Source: a virus. Taken from it: a DNA stretch of 34,550 nt. Both the position numbers and the translations under genes were made by a program. Positions 460-7,394 of this stretch are shown in pieces. The stretch is taken from the IMG/VR virus record IMGVR_UViG_3300036766_000187, positions 1 to 34,550 of that record; one strand, 5' to 3'. The notes under the pieces are model-generated. The model searched no databases and had not been told where the DNA came from. It saw nothing but the letters and a program-made list of their open reading frames with translations. Position 1 is the stretch's first letter. Each line of letters begins with the position of its first letter.

Positions 460-1568
460 TTTGATGCTCCTATCGTTGGTAAGTAGATTGTTGTGCCGAC
501 TGCCGCTACGCCGGCGGCAGTGAATAGCCAGATTATTTCGGCGTCTGGGTAATTTTTTGGGTACGCGCCCTGCCCGTCCGTGACGTAGATAATTGCCACC
601 GGATCGTACTGTTCTGATGCCAGGAGCGCAGGGGCAAAATCCGTGCCGCCGCGCCCAGGGACGCTCGTAACCGCGTAGTGCTCGCCTGGTGCAATCGTAT
701 CAACGCGCTGTACGCGGGCGTCCGCGTAAATCACAACGGTCTGGGTGGGTCGGCACTGGTCAACACATGCGCGGGCCTCCTCGATAGCCGTGGATATTGT
801 TTCAAGGTCCATGCTCCCGCTGGTATCAACGCAAATTACCAGCGGCCCGCACGCGTTGGCGTATGTGGCAGGCCGCAGTTCACCGCGTGCCAGACCCCGC
901 CGCGCCAGTCGCGCCCATGTGGTATCCTCTGCCCCGGCGGCACGGGTCAAATGGTGTGCCAATAACTCGCGCCACGGGATCGTGGGAGCTAGCGCGGCGG
1001 TCAGCGCCTCTTCAGCCGATCCCGACAATTTTCCGGCGCGCGCCAAATCGCCCAATACCGCCGCCGTTGCCTCGCGCCACACGCCGGCCTCACCCTCGCC
1101 GGCCTCACTCTTGCCGTCCGAGACCTCGCCGCAAGACGCGCCGCCGCCGCAATCCTCAGGCAATAGCGCATAGATTTCTTCCGCGCTTAATCCCTCGTAA
1201 CCGGGGTCAGCGAGGGCACTAGATGGGAGCGTCACCCCGGCCGCCAGCAGGATCAGATTGATCGCATGGTCCGCCGCGATATTCCAGCGCCGTGGATCAC
1301 GCGACCCACGGCGTAGGTGATGGAGTAGACCACAGTGCAACGACTCATGGATCAGTACGCCGACCCGCTCGGCGGGCGATAGCGCCAACCACCACGCCGG
1401 CCTAATCCACAAGTGCGCGCCGTCCGTACAGGCGGTCTGTAGATGTAGGTCGTGGCCGTCGGCCAACAGAACAGGATATAATCGTAGAGCCAGCGCCGAC
1501 CACCACGGATGATCTAGCACCAGCCGCGTGCGTGCCGCCGCTACTGTCGCGATAGTCGCGGCGCTCAT
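456..1568 (-). CDS. DUF2201-like protein: HExxH domain plus VWA (MIDAS) domain
   Basis: About 370 residues from the ATG at 1568, which overlaps the MoxR stop (ATGA); this coupling is why the start 45 bp upstream is not used. The N-terminal half has a HESLH motif (residues 74-78) followed by an NIAADHAIN segment, as in the putative zinc-metallopeptidase domain of the DUF2201 family. A Gly/Glu-rich linker follows (about 140-165). The C-terminal half is a von Willebrand A-like domain with a complete MIDAS: DTSGS (248-252), Thr309 in GRGGTDF, and Asp331. In bacteria such proteins are commonly paired with MoxR AAA+ ATPases, as here, and are thought to act together in remodelling or metal-dependent maturation. 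Substrate and proteolytic activity are unknown. Confidence 0.88.
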   Translation of the reverse strand: MSAATIATVAAARTRLVLDHPWWSALALRLYPVLLADGHDLHLQTACTDGAHLWIRPAWWLALSPAERVGVLIHESLHCGLLHHLRRGSRDPRRWNIAADHAINLILLAAGVTLPSSALADPGYEGLSAEEIYALLPEDCGGGASCGEVSDGKSEAGEGEAGVWREATAAVLGDLARAGKLSGSAEEALTAALAPTIPWRELLAHHLTRAAGAEDTTWARLARRGLARGELRPATYANACGPLVICVDTSGSMDLETISTAIEEARACVDQCRPTQTVVIYADARVQRVDTIAPGEHYAVTSVPGRGGTDFAPALLASEQYDPVAIIYVTDGQGAYPKNYPDAEIIWLFTAAGVAAVGTTIYLPTIGASK

Positions 1569-2572
1569 CCAATCACCAGCTTGCCGAGCGGGCCAGACGC
1601 TAGCGCCGACCATTCCTGTGACAGAACTAGACCCGGATTTTTGGCGATTGCGTCGCGCAACACTAGCGCCGCGTACTCGCCCAGCCCAATTTTATGCAAC
1701 CGGTCCGCTGCGCGCAGTACCTCCGACCGATGCGCCACGTCCGACGCCCGCCACGCGAGCGACGCCGCGAGCGCGTAACAGGCGCTGGGTGATGTCGGTT
1801 TTTTTATCGACTCGGGGTCGGCCAGCAGCTTGTCGATATCCGGCAGACCGCTGGCAATCGCCGCATACGCGGTAAACTCTGTCGCCGCCGCCTCCCCCAC
1901 AATCCCGGACAGGTGATCACGGCCAACCTGCGCGCCGCTCAGGAGCAGTCGGGATGCCTGCGCCCACGACCGGGGGCAGGCATAGGGCCGGGTGGCGTCA
2001 ACCTGTGGATCAAATTGGTGTAGCAACGGCGTCCGGAACCGCAAAAAACCGACCACCAGCTCGTGGACCCCCTCCGGCACCGCCCACGCCAGCCACTGCT
2101 GGAGGTCGGCCTGTACGTTATACACCGCGCAGCGCGAGATCAGGTGCGACAGGACTGCACCCGCCCCCGCACGATCCTCCCGGCGATTGGTCGCCCCCGC
2201 CACGGCCACGCAATCCGGCAGGGCAAACTCGCCAATCCGCCGGGAGTACAGTAACGGCGAGATTGCCGCCTGCACGGACGGCGACGCCTGACCAATCTCA
2301 TCGACTATCAGTAGGGTCGGCGTGGTTGCAGCAACAACGTCGGCAATATCCCCGATCAACAGGCGCTGTAGGCGCTTGGTGTTAAGGTCGGGCACGTGCA
2401 GGCCGCCCACGTCCGCGCTATCCAGCGAGGGTGCGTGCAGCGTGATGCAGGCCCGGTGATGCAGCACGGCGGCCTGTTCCAGAATTGCGGTTTTCCCCAC
2501 ACCAGGGGGACCGATAAGTAGCGGCGTGATGCCGGCCGCCAAGCAGTCTGATACTAGTTTTAATGTGTCCAA
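1565..2572 (-). CDS. MoxR-type AAA+ ATPase
   Basis: A 335-residue AAA+ ATPase starting at a TTG 4 nt after a GGAGG site; no ATG fits near this site. Walker A is GPPGVGKT (21-28), Walker B is LLIVDEIG (87-94), sensor 1 is GATNR (126-130), and SHLISR (about 142-147) supplies the likely arginine finger. These place it in the MoxR group, ATP-driven ring chaperones that work with VWA-domain partners. The next gene encodes such a partner and overlaps it by 4 nt. The C-terminal half (helical, CPRSWAQASRLL) is the expected lid. A MoxR/VWA pair in a phage early operon is uncommon; the substrate (host protein, virion or metal centre) cannot be read from sequence. Confidence 0.9.
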   Translation of the reverse strand: MDTLKLVSDCLAAGITPLLIGPPGVGKTAILEQAAVLHHRACITLHAPSLDSADVGGLHVPDLNTKRLQRLLIGDIADVVAATTPTLLIVDEIGQASPSVQAAISPLLYSRRIGEFALPDCVAVAGATNRREDRAGAGAVLSHLISRCAVYNVQADLQQWLAWAVPEGVHELVVGFLRFRTPLLHQFDPQVDATRPYACPRSWAQASRLLLSGAQVGRDHLSGIVGEAAATEFTAYAAIASGLPDIDKLLADPESIKKPTSPSACYALAASLAWRASDVAHRSEVLRAADRLHKIGLGEYAALVLRDAIAKNPGLVLSQEWSALASGPLGKLVIG

Positions 2573-2574
2573 GT

Positions 2575-2587
2575 GACCTCCAAGGTC
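2575..2587 (-). promoter_or_regulatory. Palindromic RBS element 1 (MoxR)
   Basis: On the minus strand GACCTTGGAGGTC, arms GACCT/AGGTC around TGG, placing the GGAGG Shine-Dalgarno inside a possible hairpin. It lies 4 nt before the TTG start. The same word precedes four other leftward genes. Confidence 0.6.
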
Positions 2588-2611
2588 GTTGTCGTTGTCG
2601 TTAAATCAGTC

Positions 2612-2815
2612 TCAGTCCCTATCAGGCTGGTAGCAGGCCAGAGTACCCGCCCTTGGCAGGCGCAAGCATAGCTCGCCACGCTCGTGCGCCTGACTCTCCT
2701 GTTCGCACTCCGCATCGGTGTTGCAGGCCCAGGCTTGCTCCAGGTCTTGGCCGTCCGTCCACGCAATCACTGCCACAGCGGCTGCGCACCCGATCAACAC
2801 CAGTCCGGGGCGCAT
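2612..2815 (-). CDS. Small Cys-containing protein with N-terminal hydrophobic segment
   Basis: A 67-residue protein starting at the ATG at 2815, which overlaps the preceding stop by one base (TGATG) and follows GGGAGGTC; a start further upstream would run through the previous gene. Residues 4-18 (GLVLIGCAAAVAVIA) form a signal peptide or membrane anchor. The remainder has four cysteines in CNTDAEC, LC and ACYQPD contexts, suggesting a small disulphide-stabilised periplasmic domain. No family is recognised. It sits just upstream of the MoxR gene in the leftward operon. An exported role is inference. Confidence 0.72.
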   Translation of the reverse strand: MRPGLVLIGCAAAVAVIAWTDGQDLEQAWACNTDAECEQESQAHERGELCLRLPRAGTLACYQPDRD

Positions 2816-2985
2816 CACAAGACCTCCCGCGCGGCACGCACAGCCCGCTGTAGCGGCTGCAACTTGTGACGCTCTATCGCGGCCCTGATCTGGGACACTA
2901 GACGTGGGTCCGGCACATAGGCCGGGACAACCGGGCACGTGATGGCCTGTACCGCTGAGGCAAACTCTTTTTTGTTCACGATCAT
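2815..2985 (-). CDS. Small hypothetical protein of the leftward operon
   Basis: A 56-residue protein beginning MIVNKKEF at the ATG 5 nt after GGAGG in palindromic element 2; an ATG four codons upstream lies inside the ribosome-binding site and is rejected. The sequence is mostly helical and basic (RAAIERHKLQPLQRAVRAAREVL). No domain is recognised. Its TGA overlaps the next ATG, so translation of the two small proteins is probably coupled. Confidence 0.7.
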   Translation of the reverse strand: MIVNKKEFASAVQAITCPVVPAYVPDPRLVSQIRAAIERHKLQPLQRAVRAAREVL

Positions 2986-2988
2986 TTT

Positions 2989-3001
2989 GACCTCCAAGGT
3001 C
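2989..3001 (-). promoter_or_regulatory. Palindromic RBS element 2
   Basis: GACCTTGGAGGTC on the minus strand; flanking bases extend it to TGACCT-TGG-AGGTCA, six paired bases per arm. The start codon of the 56-residue gene is 5 nt past GGAGG. Confidence 0.6.
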
Positions 3002-3018
3002 AGTAAAAGTCTGTCGTG

Positions 3019-3312
3019 CTATCCGGTTACTTCCTGTACTGACACAATAAAAAAGTAACCCGTATCCGTTTCAGCCCCGGAAAGTGTGCCGGTCCAGCCA
3101 AGGTGTTGCATGAACTCTTGTGCAACAGCTTCGTGGGCATCACTCCCGCTTAATTCATACGGGTAAGAATAAGTCTTGTTTAATTTTGGAAAGACACTTC
3201 GATACGCTTTAATGCGAGCGCCTCTCATATTGCTAGGGGAAATGTATTTCGTGACAATTCCCGGACCATAAATAGTGTTTTTTCTCACTTTAACTTCTTT
3301 TTGGGTGTTCAT
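3019..3312 (-). CDS. First gene of the leftward operon, hypothetical
   Basis: A 97-residue protein of unknown function. It starts at the ATG 6 nt after the GGAGG of palindromic element 3, about 28 nt downstream of the predicted transcription start. The sequence is basic at the N terminus (KEVKVRKN) and shows mixed alpha/beta character (YFFIVSVQEV near the end). It contains no recognised motif. As the promoter-proximal early gene it could act in take-over or regulation, but that is position-based inference. It is more AT-rich than the MoxR and VWA genes downstream, which hints at a separate origin. Confidence 0.8.
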   Translation of the reverse strand: MNTQKEVKVRKNTIYGPGIVTKYISPSNMRGARIKAYRSVFPKLNKTYSYPYELSGSDAHEAVAQEFMQHLGWTGTLSGAETDTGYFFIVSVQEVTG

Positions 3313-3316
3313 TTTT

Positions 3317-3329
3317 GACCTCCAAGGTC
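3317..3329 (-). promoter_or_regulatory. Palindromic RBS element 3
   Basis: GACCTTGGAGGTC on the minus strand, immediately upstream of the 97-residue gene, with GGAGG 6 nt from the ATG. Confidence 0.6.
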
Positions 3330-3346
3330 TGTTTGTACTGATATTG

Positions 3347-3374
3347 ATTATCTACTAATGTCATACGTTGTCAA
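3347..3374 (-). promoter_or_regulatory. Leftward early promoter
   Basis: On the minus strand a perfect -35 TTGACA (3374-3369) is separated by 16 bp from GATAAT (3352-3347), a 5/6 match to the sigma-70 -10 box. The predicted start near 3340 gives a leader of about 28 nt containing palindromic RBS element 3. The -35/spacer region resembles that of the promoter at 34275. Confidence 0.75.
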
Positions 3375-3405
3375 CATATATCTCTATTCAATGTTTTTAT
3401 GGTAT

Positions 3406-3420
3406 ATAGATATAATCTAT
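3406..3420. promoter_or_regulatory. Operator-like palindrome overlapping a rightward -10 box
   Basis: ATAGAT-ATA-ATCTAT, perfect 6-bp arms. It contains TATAAT (3411-3416) reading rightward; the -35 is weak (TTCAAT, 18 bp away). A regulator bound here could affect both this site and the leftward promoter about 35 bp away. Which protein binds is unknown. Confidence 0.4.
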
Positions 3421-3422
3421 TG

Positions 3423-3495
3423 GTTAGTGGTTACGTGTAAACCACCAGGAGGCGCTCAAAAAAGAAGGCCGCTACCCTGCAGGCCCCTTTTTATT
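3423..3495 (+). ncRNA. Candidate short RNA with 5' hairpin and weak terminator
   Basis: If the TATAAT at 3411 is used, a transcript of about 70-75 nt would begin near 3423. It would open with a hairpin (GTGGTT at 3427-3432 pairing with AACCAC at 3440-3445), then an unpaired CCAGGAGG, an A-rich stretch, and a GGCC...GGCC hairpin followed by a T-run (3488-3492). There is no reading frame of note. The weak -35 and short terminator stem make this tentative. Confidence 0.3.
3461..3495. terminator. Weak, possibly bidirectional terminator
   Basis: GGCC (3467-3470) pairs with GGCC (3482-3485). The hairpin is flanked by CCCCTTTTTATT on the plus strand and reads GGCCTTCTTTTTT on the minus strand. The stem is short, so efficiency is doubtful. 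Confidence 0.35.
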
Positions 3496-3908
3496 GTGCC
3501 GTAGGCGCTCAGGCGTTAGCCTGTTCGGTTTGACCTTTGATTTTGGTTGGATGCGTTGGGGATAGCGTCTCCCCTCCCCTGCCTAATATTTAATCACTCG
3601 TCAACCTAAGCCCTGTCAGTTGGGCAACCAGCTCCCTGCCCTTGGCAACCACCCTCCCTGCCAAACCCTCGTGCCATCAGCGTGCATTGGCGGTCGGGTT
3701 GTACTCGGGCTACGTACTCCGGATGATGACTCGGTGGCGATGGGGGGGAAATAGTGAGTGACGTCCCCGTCTCCCCCGCCCCAAAAAAAATATTCACCAA
3801 AAACAAAAAAACCCATGCCAGAAGCGGGCACCATGATGAAGCGTGGTTGGCCCGGAAACCGTGGGATGGAGGGAACGGAAGTGTAGTGAGACGAAGGACA
3901 TCGGCGGG

Positions 3909-3929
3909 TGACGATGATGTTTATCGTCA
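3909..3929. other. Stem-loop A with GATGTTT loop
   Basis: TGACGAT (3909-3915), loop GATGTTT, ATCGTCA (3923-3929): seven perfect pairs. The same loop and a covarying stem occur at 4147-4167. Confidence 0.6.
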
Positions 3930-4068
3930 TTTGACTGCCGATTCTGTTAAGGGTTTTATATCAAATAGGACAACATTCTGTCCCATAGCCAAACCCCCAG
4001 CACACACCGTGGGATTTAGATTCATGCTCCGTTTGACTCTGTTGCCACCGTTCTGTGTTGCGTGGCCT

Positions 4069-4167
4069 TGGCTTTGAGCCAGTCGTGCTGACCGGTGGGT
4101 TGGTCAACAAGTAGAGTTTCATGGTTGCTGGCATGAATTCCAGCCTGGTCGATGATGTTTATCGACC
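4069..4167. other. Cluster of four stem-loops ending in stem-loop B (GATGTTT loop)
   Basis: Successive hairpins: TGGCT-TTG-AGCCA (4069-4081), TGACC/GGTCA (4089-4106), GCTGG/CCAGC (4127-4144), and GGTCGAT-GATGTTT-ATCGACC (4147-4167). The last shares its loop with stem-loop A and differs by compensatory pair changes. No protein-coding sense is visible. It may be a structured RNA or a protein-binding DNA region. Confidence 0.45.
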
Positions 4168-4283
4168 ATTACCCGTCCGGGGATTAGACGCGGTGTTCCT
4201 CAGAGAGGGTCTGATTGCTCAGGCTCAGCTCTGATATCGGTAAAGGTATGCCTTCGGTAGAATCATTGCAATAGGCGATGGAC

Positions 4284-4320
4284 AAAAAAGAGGCCAGACC
4301 CCGCTACGCAGTGACTGGCC
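4284..4320 (-). terminator. Rho-independent terminator (minus strand)
   Basis: On the minus strand GGCCAG (4320-4315) pairs with CTGGCC (4297-4292), followed by TCTTTTTT. It would stop leftward transcripts, such as one from the reverse-oriented gene at 4967-4728, before they reach the control region. Confidence 0.6.
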
Positions 4321-4448
4321 GAATGCCCTAAATGTTGCCCCTGATAGCGGTGACCTTGGAGTGAGCCGCTGCGCCGGGGCCGCGCACACCGTTGGAGGAT
4401 GCGAGCCAAGTATGATACATAACCCTGGCCGGAACAAGGTGGTGAGGC

Positions 4449-4643
4449 ATGGCAAAGTCCAAAAAGAAGAAAGAACAACCGCAGTGGAATGCGGGCCTTG
4501 GCAAACGGCCCCGTCACTACGTTCAGGACATCATCGAAAAATCCACCCGCAAGGAACGGGCCTCCCTGCTGGAAGAGGTTCCGTCGGAGTACCGGACATG
4601 GGTGGAAGAGTCCGTCAAGGATTATTATTGGAGAAGAGGTTGA
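4449..4643 (+). CDS. Small basic hypothetical protein
   Basis: A 64-residue protein beginning MAKSKKKKEQ with a Lys-rich N terminus and a charged helical body (YVQDIIEKSTRKERASLLEE, ending DYYWRRG). A GGTGGTGAGG sequence precedes the ATG. Its TGA stop lies inside the first copy of the 51-bp repeat, so the repeat has probably replaced or fixed its end. No family is recognised; nucleic-acid binding is only suggested by charge. Confidence 0.65.
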   Translation: MAKSKKKKEQPQWNAGLGKRPRHYVQDIIEKSTRKERASLLEEVPSEYRTWVEESVKDYYWRRG

Positions 4644-4704
4644 CTTACCGGTAACATACTCTCAGAATCAGTGCTCATCACTGACAGTGGAGCATCACGT
4701 TCCA
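4634..4704 (+). repeat. 51-bp promoter-like repeat, copy R1 (71 bp shared with R3)
   Basis: The core 4634-4684 is identical to R2 (5121-5171) and R3 (6823-6873). It reads as a promoter: TTGACT (4640-4645), 17-bp spacer beginning with the palindrome TTACCGGTAA, CAGAAT (4663-4668), then hairpin TCAGTG-CTCAT-CACTGA. A further 20 bp (4685-4704) is shared with R3, and 4686-4725 matches 7256-7295 in the lipoprotein gene with one mismatch. Downstream it runs into an antisense gene, so this copy drives nothing obvious. Confidence 0.85.
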
Positions 4705-4727
4705 ATGACAAATGAACAGATCATCAT

Positions 4728-4968: not shown

Positions 4969-5120
4969 TTATTTAACCTCGATGAGATAACGATTGTCCT
5001 GCAAATTATCCGGCGTTACCTTCAGCGCCGGGCCTAAATCCGGGATCGGTTCTTTCGGGACATCGTCCCCACAAGATGAACCAGCATACCACAATGAACC
5101 AGCATACCACACCGGCACCA
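4969..5120 (-). pseudogene. C-terminal remnant of a gene cut off at repeat R2
   Basis: On the minus strand an open frame without its own start runs out of R2 and ends with a protein-like tail (DDVPKEPIPDLGPALKV, then NRYLIEVK and stop). The next gene's ribosome-binding site overlaps its end, as in a normal operon. The missing 5' part coincides with R2, so a breakpoint there removed it. An 18-bp tandem repeat lies within it (5076-5111). Confidence 0.5.
5076..5111. repeat. 18-bp tandem repeat, two copies
   Basis: ATGAACCAGCATACCACA occurs twice in direct succession (5076-5093 and 5094-5111). Part of the second copy (GCATACCACACC, 5102-5113) is an exact inverted repeat of 5179-5190 at the methyltransferase start, so a 12-bp inverted repeat flanks R2. 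Confidence 0.8.
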
Positions 5121-5171
5121 AAGAGGTTGACTTACCGGTAACATACTCTCAGAATCAGTGCTCATCACTGA
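5121..5171 (+). repeat. 51-bp promoter-like repeat, copy R2
   Basis: Identical to the cores of R1 and R3. Predicted -35 TTGACT and -10 CAGAAT are 17 bp apart, and the hairpin TCAGTG-CTCAT-CACTGA ends 15 bp before the methyltransferase ATG, with CTTGGAGGT between them. It is the probable promoter of the methyltransferase. Confidence 0.8.
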
Positions 5172-5186
5172 GCTTGGAGGTGTGGT

Positions 5187-6944
5187 ATGCGCTATTTAAG
5201 CCTGTTTTCAGGCATCGAAGCCGCCAGCGTGGCGTGGTATCCGCTTGGATGGGAGTGTTGTGCTGTTGCCGAGATTGAGCCGTTCCCGTGTGCCGTATTG
5301 AGACACCACTACCCAGGCGTTCCGAATCTTGGCGACATAACAAAAATAACACACGAACAGATAGCGGTACTCGGGAAGATCGATCTAGTGGTTGGCGGGT
5401 TTCCATGCCAGGACGTTTCGGTAGCCGGGGAAAGAGCGGGGATGAAAAATGAAGACGGAAGCACAACACGATCTGGACTTTTTTTCGACGCCATGCGGAT
5501 CATCGAATGGATCGGTCCGCGATGGGTCGTCATCGAGAACGTCCCAGGACTGTTCAGCAGCAACGGCGGCCGAGACTTTGCTGACGTGGTTGGAGAAATG
5601 GCTGGGTGCCAGTTTGACGTACCGGCCGGCGGATGGATCAATTCCGGTGTCGCAGTCGGTCCGCTCGGACTCGTCGAATGGACGGTACTGGATGCGCAAT
5701 ACCACGGACTGGCACAAAGACGCCGCCGTGTGTTCCTTGTCCGAGATTCTGGAAACTGGTCAGATAGACCGCCGCTATTTCTTGAGCCCTACCGCTTGCA
5801 GGGGCATCCTGCGCCGCGCCGCGAAGCGGGGCAAAGACCTGCCCCCACTATTAGCGCGCGCACTCAAGGCGGTGGCGGACTCGGAACCGACTTCGATTTA
5901 GACGGGGGGTTTATTCCCGTGCCGCATGCCGACACTTCGCCAGCACTAAAGGCGCGGGATGGAAAAGGCCCGTCAAGTGACGGTGACGGTGACGGTGCAA
6001 TTCTCATTCCAATGCTTGCCCATGAGCCAATTGCCTTCGACTGTAAGGTATCCGGACAAAATGGTTTTGGAGTCGGCGAGATTGCGTCAACGATGCGCAG
6101 CATGGGCCGTTCCGGTTCGCACCAGAGTGGTGGCGGACATCTGGCCGTGGCCATTCATGAAAACCAAAAAGGATACGATGATGCCATCCCACAAGAAAGC
6201 CACGCCGGAACGCTTCTGTCAGGAGTGCAAGAAGCAATTGGAACGAAAGCGTTCGCCGAATGGGGACTTGGAATACTTGATTCACTTCAATGCTCGCAAG
6301 TTCTGCGACAGGCGATGCATGGCAGCGAACTTCGGCCGGCGACATTCTCCCGTAGTTGGGTGGTCTGCTGCGCACTCGGTAGCCCGGTCTCTCGTTCCGA
6401 AGGGGCCATGCAATCGCTGCGGGAAGCCTGCGGCGAGGGATGTCCATCACAAGGATGGAAATCACTTGAACAATTTGCTGATGAACTTGGAGCGTATTTG
6501 TCGGAGTTGTCACAGTCTGGAGCACAAGCGGAAAGGCTCATGCGAGATTTGTGGCAAACCGATGAAGGGACTGGGCTATTGCGAAAAGCATTATCAGCGA
6601 TTCAAGAAGTATGGAGATCCGCTATCGCTCAAAATGGATCAGCACACGCCGATTATCAGGTCAGAAGATTGATCCCGACGGAATGTGAATTTTTGCAGGG
6701 ATTTCCTCGTGGGTTTTTGGACATCACGATTCGCAACAAACCAGCAGCAGATGGCCCGAAATATAAAGCCCTTGGAAATAGCTTCCCTGTTACGGCCGTG
6801 CGGTGGATTGGTGAACGCATAAAAGAGGTTGACTTACCGGTAACATACTCTCAGAATCAGTGCTCATCACTGACAGTGGAGCATCACGTTCCAAAAGAAA
6901 TCACAGGAGAAAGAAATGAGCACATCAGTGTCCACACGAAATAA
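5187..6944 (+). CDS. DNA C5-cytosine methyltransferase with extended target-recognition region
   Basis: A 585-residue C5-MTase starting at the ATG after GGAGGTGTGGT. Motif I is LSLFSGIEAA (4-13), motif IV GGFPCQ with catalytic Cys74, motif VI ENVPG (117-121), motif VIII QRRRRVF (177-183), motif IX TECEFLQGFP (about 498-507) and motif X YKALGNSFPV (about 529-538). The gap between motifs VIII and IX is about 310 residues, far longer than usual, and residues 324-495 are dual-coding with an HNH gene in another frame. From residue 546 on, about 40 residues are encoded by repeat R3 and what follows, so the natural C terminus was probably RWIGERIK. Likely role: methylating phage DNA against host restriction. 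Specificity cannot be read from sequence. Confidence 0.9.
   Translation: MRYLSLFSGIEAASVAWYPLGWECCAVAEIEPFPCAVLRHHYPGVPNLGDITKITHEQIAVLGKIDLVVGGFPCQDVSVAGERAGMKNEDGSTTRSGLFFDAMRIIEWIGPRWVVIENVPGLFSSNGGRDFADVVGEMAGCQFDVPAGGWINSGVAVGPLGLVEWTVLDAQYHGLAQRRRRVFLVRDSGNWSDRPPLFLEPYRLQGHPAPRREAGQRPAPTISARTQGGGGLGTDFDLDGGFIPVPHADTSPALKARDGKGPSSDGDGDGAILIPMLAHEPIAFDCKVSGQNGFGVGEIASTMRSMGRSGSHQSGGGHLAVAIHENQKGYDDAIPQESHAGTLLSGVQEAIGTKAFAEWGLGILDSLQCSQVLRQAMHGSELRPATFSRSWVVCCALGSPVSRSEGAMQSLREACGEGCPSQGWKSLEQFADELGAYLSELSQSGAQAERLMRDLWQTDEGTGLLRKALSAIQEVWRSAIAQNGSAHADYQVRRLIPTECEFLQGFPRGFLDITIRNKPAADGPKYKALGNSFPVTAVRWIGERIKEVDLPVTYSQNQCSSLTVEHHVPKEITGERNEHISVHTK
6178..6672 (+). CDS. HNH homing-type endonuclease nested in the methyltransferase gene
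   Basis: About 164 residues in a different frame from the surrounding methyltransferase. AAAGGA precedes the tandem ATGs at 6178/6181; an ATG at 6157 is an alternative. Three Cys-rich modules are intact: FCQEC...FCDRRC, CNRCGKPAARDVHHKDGN followed by CRSCH, and CEICGKP...YCEKHYQRF. HHKDGNHLNN and the flanking CxxC pairs are the HNH catalytic core; the last module is a zinc-finger DNA-binding tail seen in phage HNH proteins. Its TGA falls exactly where methyltransferase motif IX begins. It probably nicks or cuts DNA to spread itself. The surrounding methyltransferase frame remains open throughout, which is unusual. Confidence 0.85.
   Translation: MMPSHKKATPERFCQECKKQLERKRSPNGDLEYLIHFNARKFCDRRCMAANFGRRHSPVVGWSAAHSVARSLVPKGPCNRCGKPAARDVHHKDGNHLNNLLMNLERICRSCHSLEHKRKGSCEICGKPMKGLGYCEKHYQRFKKYGDPLSLKMDQHTPIIRSED
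6823..6893 (+). repeat. 51-bp promoter-like repeat, copy R3 (71 bp shared with R1)
   Basis: The core 6823-6873 is identical to R1 and R2, and the extra 20 bp to 6893 is identical to R1. It is translated in frame as the methyltransferase tail (KEVDLPVTYSQNQ...). It is also placed as a promoter for the gene at 6916, with CAGGAGA upstream of that ATG. Confidence 0.85.
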
Positions 6945-7203
6945 AGCCATCCAAGCAAGCCCCGCTATCATGCGCCAGGCTATGCAGGAAGCGGGATACC
7001 AACAACGGATAACTGATCTCGAACGTCAGCTTTCCGAAGCCTGCCAACAGCGAGACCGGGCGATCAGTAACCACATGGGAGCGGTTGAAGAGCTGGCCGA
7101 AGCCCGTAAAGCAATCCAAGAGGCCGGCGAGATTGTGCATACGGGCGCAAAACTGGACGCAATGCGGGTGGCTGAGATCGATGGCATGAAGGCAAAACCA
7201 TGA
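6916..7203 (+). CDS. Coiled-coil hypothetical protein
   Basis: A 95-residue, strongly helical protein. Residues about 30-80 form a coiled coil (RITDLERQLSEACQQRD, then EELAEARKAIQEAG). It starts at the ATG after CACAGGAGAAAGAA, downstream of promoter-like repeat R3, and its first 29 nt overlap the extended methyltransferase end in another frame. The next gene overlaps its stop (ATGA). No family is recognised. Confidence 0.75.
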   Translation: MSTSVSTRNKAIQASPAIMRQAMQEAGYQQRITDLERQLSEACQQRDRAISNHMGAVEELAEARKAIQEAGEIVHTGAKLDAMRVAEIDGMKAKP

Positions 7204-7394
7204 ACAGAATTAAGTGGCCACTCATAGCCTGTGTTTTACTTATATCTGGATGCGGAGTGGAGCATCACGTTCCAATGACAAACGAACAGATCATCGCAGA
7301 AGTTAGAAAATGTGAGAAGGCGGGTTTATCGGGACATTCGTATCTGAACCTGGATTTTCGGACATTCGCCATTGAATGCAGGGCAAAACAATGA
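7200..7394 (+). CDS. Small lipoprotein
   Basis: A 64-residue protein with a lipoprotein signal peptide (MNRIKWPLIACVLLISGC) and lipobox LISGC, so it should be lipidated at the Cys and membrane-anchored. The mature part is only about 46 residues and mostly helical (MTNEQIIAEVRKCEKAG). Codons for VEHHVPMTNEQII match a 40-bp copy beside repeat R1, including its internal ATG, so the signal peptide may have been joined to an older cytoplasmic protein starting MTNEQII. It overlaps both neighbours by 4 nt. It could be an outer-membrane lipoprotein acting in superinfection exclusion, but that is speculation. Confidence 0.78.
   Translation: MNRIKWPLIACVLLISGCGVEHHVPMTNEQIIAEVRKCEKAGLSGHSYLNLDFRTFAIECRAKQ
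7256..7295 (+). repeat. 40-bp segment duplicated beside R1
   Basis: Matches 4686-4725 with a single synonymous difference (AAC here, AAT there). Its first 18 bp also match the end of R3 (6876-6893). It lies inside the lipoprotein gene and links that gene to the mobile repeat family. Confidence 0.8.

Follow-up and report, generated by a model that had tools for sequence, protein, structure and literature searches.

How can a complete endonuclease gene sit inside another protein-coding gene, in a different reading frame, and leave the outer gene readable from end to end? Mobile endonuclease genes usually occupy intergenic positions or are carried by an intron or intein that splices, an arrangement that spares the host gene. 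In the virus record of 34,550 bases analyzed here (hereafter referred to as the window), a whole HNH endonuclease gene is concealed in another frame of a DNA methyltransferase (MTase) gene that is read through it, and this was found to be so in dozens of lineages.

The host gene matches PF00145 and has the conserved motifs in order, and is on these grounds predicted to encode a C5-cytosine DNA methyltransferase. Its features are as follows:

5187..6944, plus strand: predicted C5-cytosine DNA methyltransferase ORF, 585 aa, running through the insert (PF00145, E 1.8e-43; PHROG 116, E 1.2e-75)
5187..5756, plus strand: MTase motifs I-VIII, catalytic core, residues 1-190 (conserved in the MTase alignment; AlphaFold pLDDT mostly >90)
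5757..6180, plus strand: variable/target-recognition linker, also present in HNH-free MTases (alignment; spacing between motifs VIII and IX)
6660..6707, plus strand: motif IX (VRRLIPTECEFLQGFP), the first codons of which double as the last HNH codons (RSED) and stop
6762..6821, plus strand: motif X region (alignment; pLDDT about 90)
6823..6894, plus strand: 72-nt dispersed repeat, the source of many of the last MTase codons

The spacing between motifs VIII and IX ranges from 234 to 1101 nt among HNH-free MTases. In the AlphaFold model of the MTase the core is confident, and the segment overlapped by HNH is mostly of pLDDT <50. The 72-nt repeat, which contains TTGACT and is possibly a regulatory repeat, occurs near gene ends, with full copies at 4634-4705 and 6823-6894, an 81% copy at 5121-5192 and a part copy at 7256-7295.

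The HNH gene lies wholly within the 585-codon MTase gene, one frame ahead of it (+1 relative to the MTase). Its reading frame is open from position 5959 and ends with a stop codon at 6670-6672; the gene would be 171 codons long from ATG 6157 or 163 codons long from ATG 6181. The latter appears the likelier start, since the MPSHKKATP encoded there matches the family sequence MPAHKKPTP and an AAGGA lies upstream. The following features were assigned:

6181..6672, plus strand: predicted HNH endonuclease gene of 163 aa in frame +1 of the MTase, with ATG 6157 as the alternative start (AlphaFold mean pLDDT 90; PHROG 1271, E 9.8e-13; weak Pfam HNH/DZR_2)
6169..6173, plus strand: Shine-Dalgarno-like AAGGA, 7 nt upstream of ATG 6181 (by sequence; enrichment of such sites is given below)
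6217..6318, plus strand: zinc module 1, C13, C16, C42 and C46 (invariant or nearly invariant columns)
6409..6525, plus strand: catalytic core with zinc knuckles, C77, C80, D87-V88-H89-H90, N97-N98, N102, C107, C110, H111 and H115 (invariant or nearly invariant columns)
6541..6591, plus strand: zinc module 3, C121, C124, C134 and H137 (HNH alignment)

The HNH-core residues H89, H90, N98, H111 and H115 are in the second module, together with C77/C80/C107/C110. Conservation of catalytic residues and zinc-binding cysteines, which are kept down to about 30% identity, identifies the product as a predicted HNH endonuclease. The Pfam HNH match is below threshold (16.7 bits versus the curated cut-off of 21.4), and PDB sequence and fold searches with HNH gave no confident match. 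The profile of PHROG 1271, a group of phage HNH endonucleases, describes a longer protein (361 positions) and aligned with the core and the N-terminal Cys module over residues 9-121. An earlier note on this DNA had placed the HNH gene at MTase codons 324-495, which equals ATG 6157 to the stop; the three Cys-rich modules that it described were all found and are conserved in the alignment, and the stop that it located at motif IX falls within the VRRL-I codons. Elsewhere in the window, 456-1613 and 1565-2572 (minus strand) hold a gene pair coding for a DUF2201 metallopeptidase/VWA-like protein and an AAA ATPase; PHROGs calls its first gene an HNH endonuclease, for which Pfam gives no support.

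Searches with the MTase and with HNH were run against IMG/VR, GTDB genomes and GenBank phages. All 60 HNH relatives found at E<1e-20 after removal of duplicate contigs were examined. The MTase frame, which lies two bases past that of HNH, was stop-free over HNH in 58 of the 60. The expected number of stops was calculated by randomizing the synonymous codons of each HNH, so that both the protein and the codon use are preserved. Over the 58 nested loci no stop was seen in the MTase frame versus 418 expected, while the unused third frame of the same loci contained 327 stops versus 310 expected. These loci include 28 long lineages with less than 72% HNH identity, which contribute about 201 of the 418 expected stops (per-locus expectations summed over the 28). 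For L086 and L118, the only two non-nested relatives, 8 stops were counted in each, versus 6.9 and 8.9 expected. GC content ranges from 0.35 to 0.63 across loci, and composition thus fails to explain the open frame. A chance open MTase frame is ruled out by the stop count. For the window HNH alone, 5.5 stops are expected, and about 1 in 1000 synonymous recodings leaves the MTase frame stop-free; the earlier note, which put the chance at roughly 1 in 4000, was right that the frame is open beyond chance.

Shine-Dalgarno pairing upstream of the HNH starts was also stronger than elsewhere in the same genes (−5.8 versus −3.2 kcal/mol; p 4e-10, 58 loci). We conclude that HNH and MTase are a real gene pair and that the MTase frame is kept open. 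No homologue was found to combine a disrupted reading of the overlap in one frame with an intact reading in the other, the finding that the earlier note had named as refuting it; some loci have an MTase split outside the overlap with a whole HNH, and others a deleted HNH with a whole MTase. A profile scan of the MTase frame, performed in search of the insert without HNH, found 17 loci, of which only contig L183 was new, with HNH intact; the rest were nested contigs already in the set. At L053:2204-3447 there is a tandem pair of HNH copies, with the MTase-frame reading open in each and the MTase fragmented.

The insert follows the target-recognition region and precedes motif IX. In 34 of the 58 loci the HNH stop begins exactly 10 nt past the first base of the VRRL V codon, and the end of HNH with its stop is therefore written in the conserved motif IX of the MTase. 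When near sister genes with and without HNH are compared, similarity returns within about 20 nt of the HNH stop; in the pair L017/L029, for example, it amounts to 88% over 537 nt from position 5062, the HNH stop ending at 5059. The left border of the insert is blurred because the linker is variable.

The distribution of HNH is patchy. Our first set of MTases without HNH ("empty") was biased, having been partly fetched by a motif IX pattern, and frequencies were taken from a sample picked by the MTase N-terminal part, in which HNH was found in 0 of 80 MTases. On a tree of MTase N-terminal parts the nested and empty states change 20 times, compared to 29.7 times in shuffles, and 6 of the 20 changes are forced by strongly supported branches. 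Near sister pairs, one nested and the other empty, are L010/L030, L017/L029 and L055/L026. The nearest relative of the window MTase by its N-terminal part (L011, 77%) is without HNH; the nearest relative of the window HNH (L082, 78%) lies in an MTase with 48% N-terminal identity. Presence is thus patchy at one homologous site, with close empty alleles, as in homing endonucleases. Plasmids gave no match.

Two empty MTases carry relics of HNH (E 4e-7 for L015 and 1e-7 for L029), and the MTase frame is open in both. The relic in L015 is 20 codons long and reads, in the HNH frame, MPAHRKPTP followed directly by DQHTPVCRSED and a stop; judging from this sequence, it is two HNH ends joined by an in-frame deletion. 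In L029 the HNH tail is retained. HNH copies can therefore be lost through in-frame deletion. Candidate relics in L028 and L161 were not counted, their weak scores being explained by the motif IX codons alone.

The best explanation of these data, and in our judgment a probable one, is that of a mobile and probably homing HNH gene, with an insert through which translation of the host gene continues. An HNH gene with its own ribosome-binding site sits in the C5-MTase gene; the ribosome translating the MTase would pass straight through the insert, so that the enzyme gains about 160 residues, probably loosely structured, and a second ribosome would initiate internally and produce the HNH protein. 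We infer that this protein is a homing endonuclease that would cut MTase alleles without HNH, its gene being copied in at repair and the 3′ flank converted along with it, and that HNH may persist because the host gene stays unbroken. The earlier note had proposed, as one of two possibilities, that HNH invaded a variable linker and was retained only where both frames stayed open, a proposal that agrees with the 58 two-frame loci, the position of the insert ahead of motif IX and behind the target domain, the patchy sisters and the relics of in-frame deletion; its claim that the host gene is unbroken was borne out for the reading frame.

Similarities of HNH and MTase are correlated (Mantel rho 0.59-0.75, p 0.0005), and consequently vertical descent with loss could account for much of the history, which speaks against homing. 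HNH similarity tracks the C-terminal part and 3′ flank of the MTase (rho 0.75) above the N-terminal part (0.59), and motif IX of the type E[FAI]LQGF was found in 27 of 46 nested versus 0 of 74 independently sampled empty MTases. Both co-conversion of the 3′ flank and old linkage fit these observations.

Alternatively, HNH and the MTase may be functional partners, such as a restriction-modification-like pair or an MTase with a Vsr-like repair nickase, that nesting keeps together and co-expressed. In the dcm-vsr pair of E. coli a nuclease gene overlaps the end of a C5-methyltransferase gene; that overlap is short and terminal, not nested, and Vsr is not an HNH enzyme. The close HNH relatives are all in C5-MTases, and their correlation with the MTase C-terminal part also speaks for partnership. 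At L086:2899-4363 (Spirosoma lacussanchae) a related HNH overlaps the last 32 nt of an intact C5-MTase ORF without being nested in it, an arrangement that would suit partnership and counts against translated-through homing. However, related MTases mostly do without HNH, as the independent sample shows, its presence is patchy between sister genes, and it has been cleanly deleted in frame with the MTase retained. In addition, the HNH relative in L118 stands alone, without an MTase, and L122 has a more distant HNH inside a DNA polymerase ORF. We consider partnership unlikely.

Somewhat less likely still is overprinting with a gain of function, in which the shadow frame of HNH now serves the MTase as a functional segment (for example, for extra target recognition) and is selected for its amino acids. 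Identity in the MTase frame of the overlap is 0.340 versus 0.290 in the synonymous null. Against this first null z was about 20, but a phantom-frame control made of non-overlapping codons was raised as well (z 8.3); the excess identity is 0.061 in the MTase frame versus 0.032 in the control. Individual positions are prominent, above all this one:

6261..6263, plus strand: MTase-frame Trp 359 (TGG), sharing bases with HNH Asn27/Gly28 (W in all but one of 28 divergent lineages, 27 in number)

It is preserved through a conserved wobble T while the HNH residue varies. On the other hand, wobble identity at shared fourfold codons of divergent pairs is the same inside the overlap (0.372) as outside it (0.374), the overlapped segment is of low structural confidence, and sister MTases manage without the insert. 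Evidence on amino-acid selection in the MTase frame is divided, with the identity excess and W359 in favor and the equal wobble identity against. Given the raised control and the equal wobble identity, just a partial selection signal is claimed: part of the MTase-frame residues may also be selected.

It is very improbable that HNH alone is functional, the MTase being dead and its open frame a by-product of chance or composition. In about 11 loci separate ORFs carry motifs I-VIII and IX-X, split outside the overlap, which places MTase function in doubt there and counts against translated-through homing too; the insert in the MTase frame is also predicted to be mostly unstructured. Assembly errors are a possible source of the split MTases, or these may still act as two-chain enzymes in the manner of M.AquI. 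Breaks between motifs VIII and IX are tolerated in the two-subunit C5 methyltransferases M.AquI and M.EcoHK31I (PMC3404938), where the break region is that of the split loci and involvement of an endonuclease gene is not described. As a general account, a functional HNH in a dead MTase is refuted by the 0 versus 418 stops, with the unused frame as expected, and 33 loci have the N- and C-terminal MTase motifs in a single uninterrupted ORF.

That the insert is a self-splicing element, either a group I intron carrying HNH or an intein, is the least credible reading: group I introns commonly carry HNH genes and a conserved enzyme is interrupted here, but Rfam intron families have zero matches within 5000-7300, the insert is almost all HNH coding, which leaves no room for a ribozyme, a Pfam scan of the MTase reading gave only PF00145 and a sub-cutoff DUF3243, with no intein family, and an open MTase frame would be unnecessary if the insert were spliced.

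A hidden gene of this kind has been described before. The ShiLan domain, first described in 2023 (PMC9957025), is an insertion in the mycobacteriophage methylase gp65 that hides an out-of-frame HNH; no intron or intein is involved, and the authors argue for homing (Arsenault, Gosselin and Gogarten 2025, PMC11855218). Both ShiLan (genome JN020143 was used for comparison) and the window family have an entire out-of-frame HNH gene, flanking zinc fingers included, within a phage methyltransferase gene, a stop-free host frame, a disjunct, patchy distribution and a poorly folded host-frame insert, and in both an intron or intein signature is absent. They differ in methyltransferase class, HNH subfamily and frame. 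ShiLan gp65 is an N6/N4 methyltransferase (PF01555), while the window family is in C5 enzymes; ShiLan HNH scores 11.7 bits against the window-family profile, in the core only; and it is in frame +2 of its MTase rather than +1. By these sequence comparisons, the window family is independent of ShiLan. No ribosome-binding site is reported for ShiLan, whereas Shine-Dalgarno sites are enriched in the window family, and the cases of that report are mainly from mycobacteriophages, as compared to 58 contigs from diverse viruses here (PMC11855218). The kind was thus published in 2025, and the window family is an independent and far broader instance of it, indicating a strategy widespread beyond the mycobacteriophages that dominated that report. 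Pacc40 gp60 (PMC11855218) and the Applejack methylase (PMC12613952), likened by description, also have an out-of-frame HNH in a phage methylase gene. The methylases of mycobacteriophages Beem, Phoebus and Dallas were considered as counterparts of the ShiLan methylase and rejected, being a different gene.

Five MTases have another out-of-frame HNH, at motif VIII, composed of HTH-like repeats and HNH_3:

L018:2160-2930, second hidden HNH
L037:1700-2302, second hidden HNH
L047:1556-2158, second hidden HNH
L106:1885-2493, second hidden HNH
L239:3445-4068, second hidden HNH

This HNH (HNH_3 domain PF13392, E 3e-8 in L037) is unrelated to the first family. The MTase reading over it uses the opposite relative frame and has 0 stops (about 19 expected), with 13 to 27 in the third frame. 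Four of the five MTase ORFs (L018, L037, L047 and L106) contain both hidden HNHs. ShiLan HNH scores 50 against the profile of the second HNH and has the same relative frame. These features suggest that translated-through HNH genes arose more than once.

At L122:3252-3656 a distant HNH is out of frame in an ORF (1385-4258) with UDG and family A DNA polymerase domains, and the polymerase frame is stop-free over it; this is a single case. We raise tentatively, as a possibility that we do not yet favor, that translated-through out-of-frame HNHs are a general class of mobile genes with several origins: at least two unrelated families would occupy different sites, in opposite frames, in the same C5-MTases, a distant relative would occupy the polymerase ORF, and in old copies the shadow reading may be starting to come under selection, as at W359.

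The nested loci are a well-supported case of extended two-frame coding in phages, and they offer ready material for measuring selection on both frames. Standard annotation overlooks such nested genes. In Staphylococcus phage CUB-EPI_14 (L152, ON325435) the sole annotation at 2851-4656 is a DNA-cytosine methyltransferase, and the HNH nested there, at about 4010-4480, goes unannotated. In Komagataeibacter phage phiKX1 (L153, LC644975), the record of which gives short hypothetical proteins only at 2860-4509, and neither an MTase nor an HNH gene, these positions hold a C5-MTase ORF with a nested HNH.
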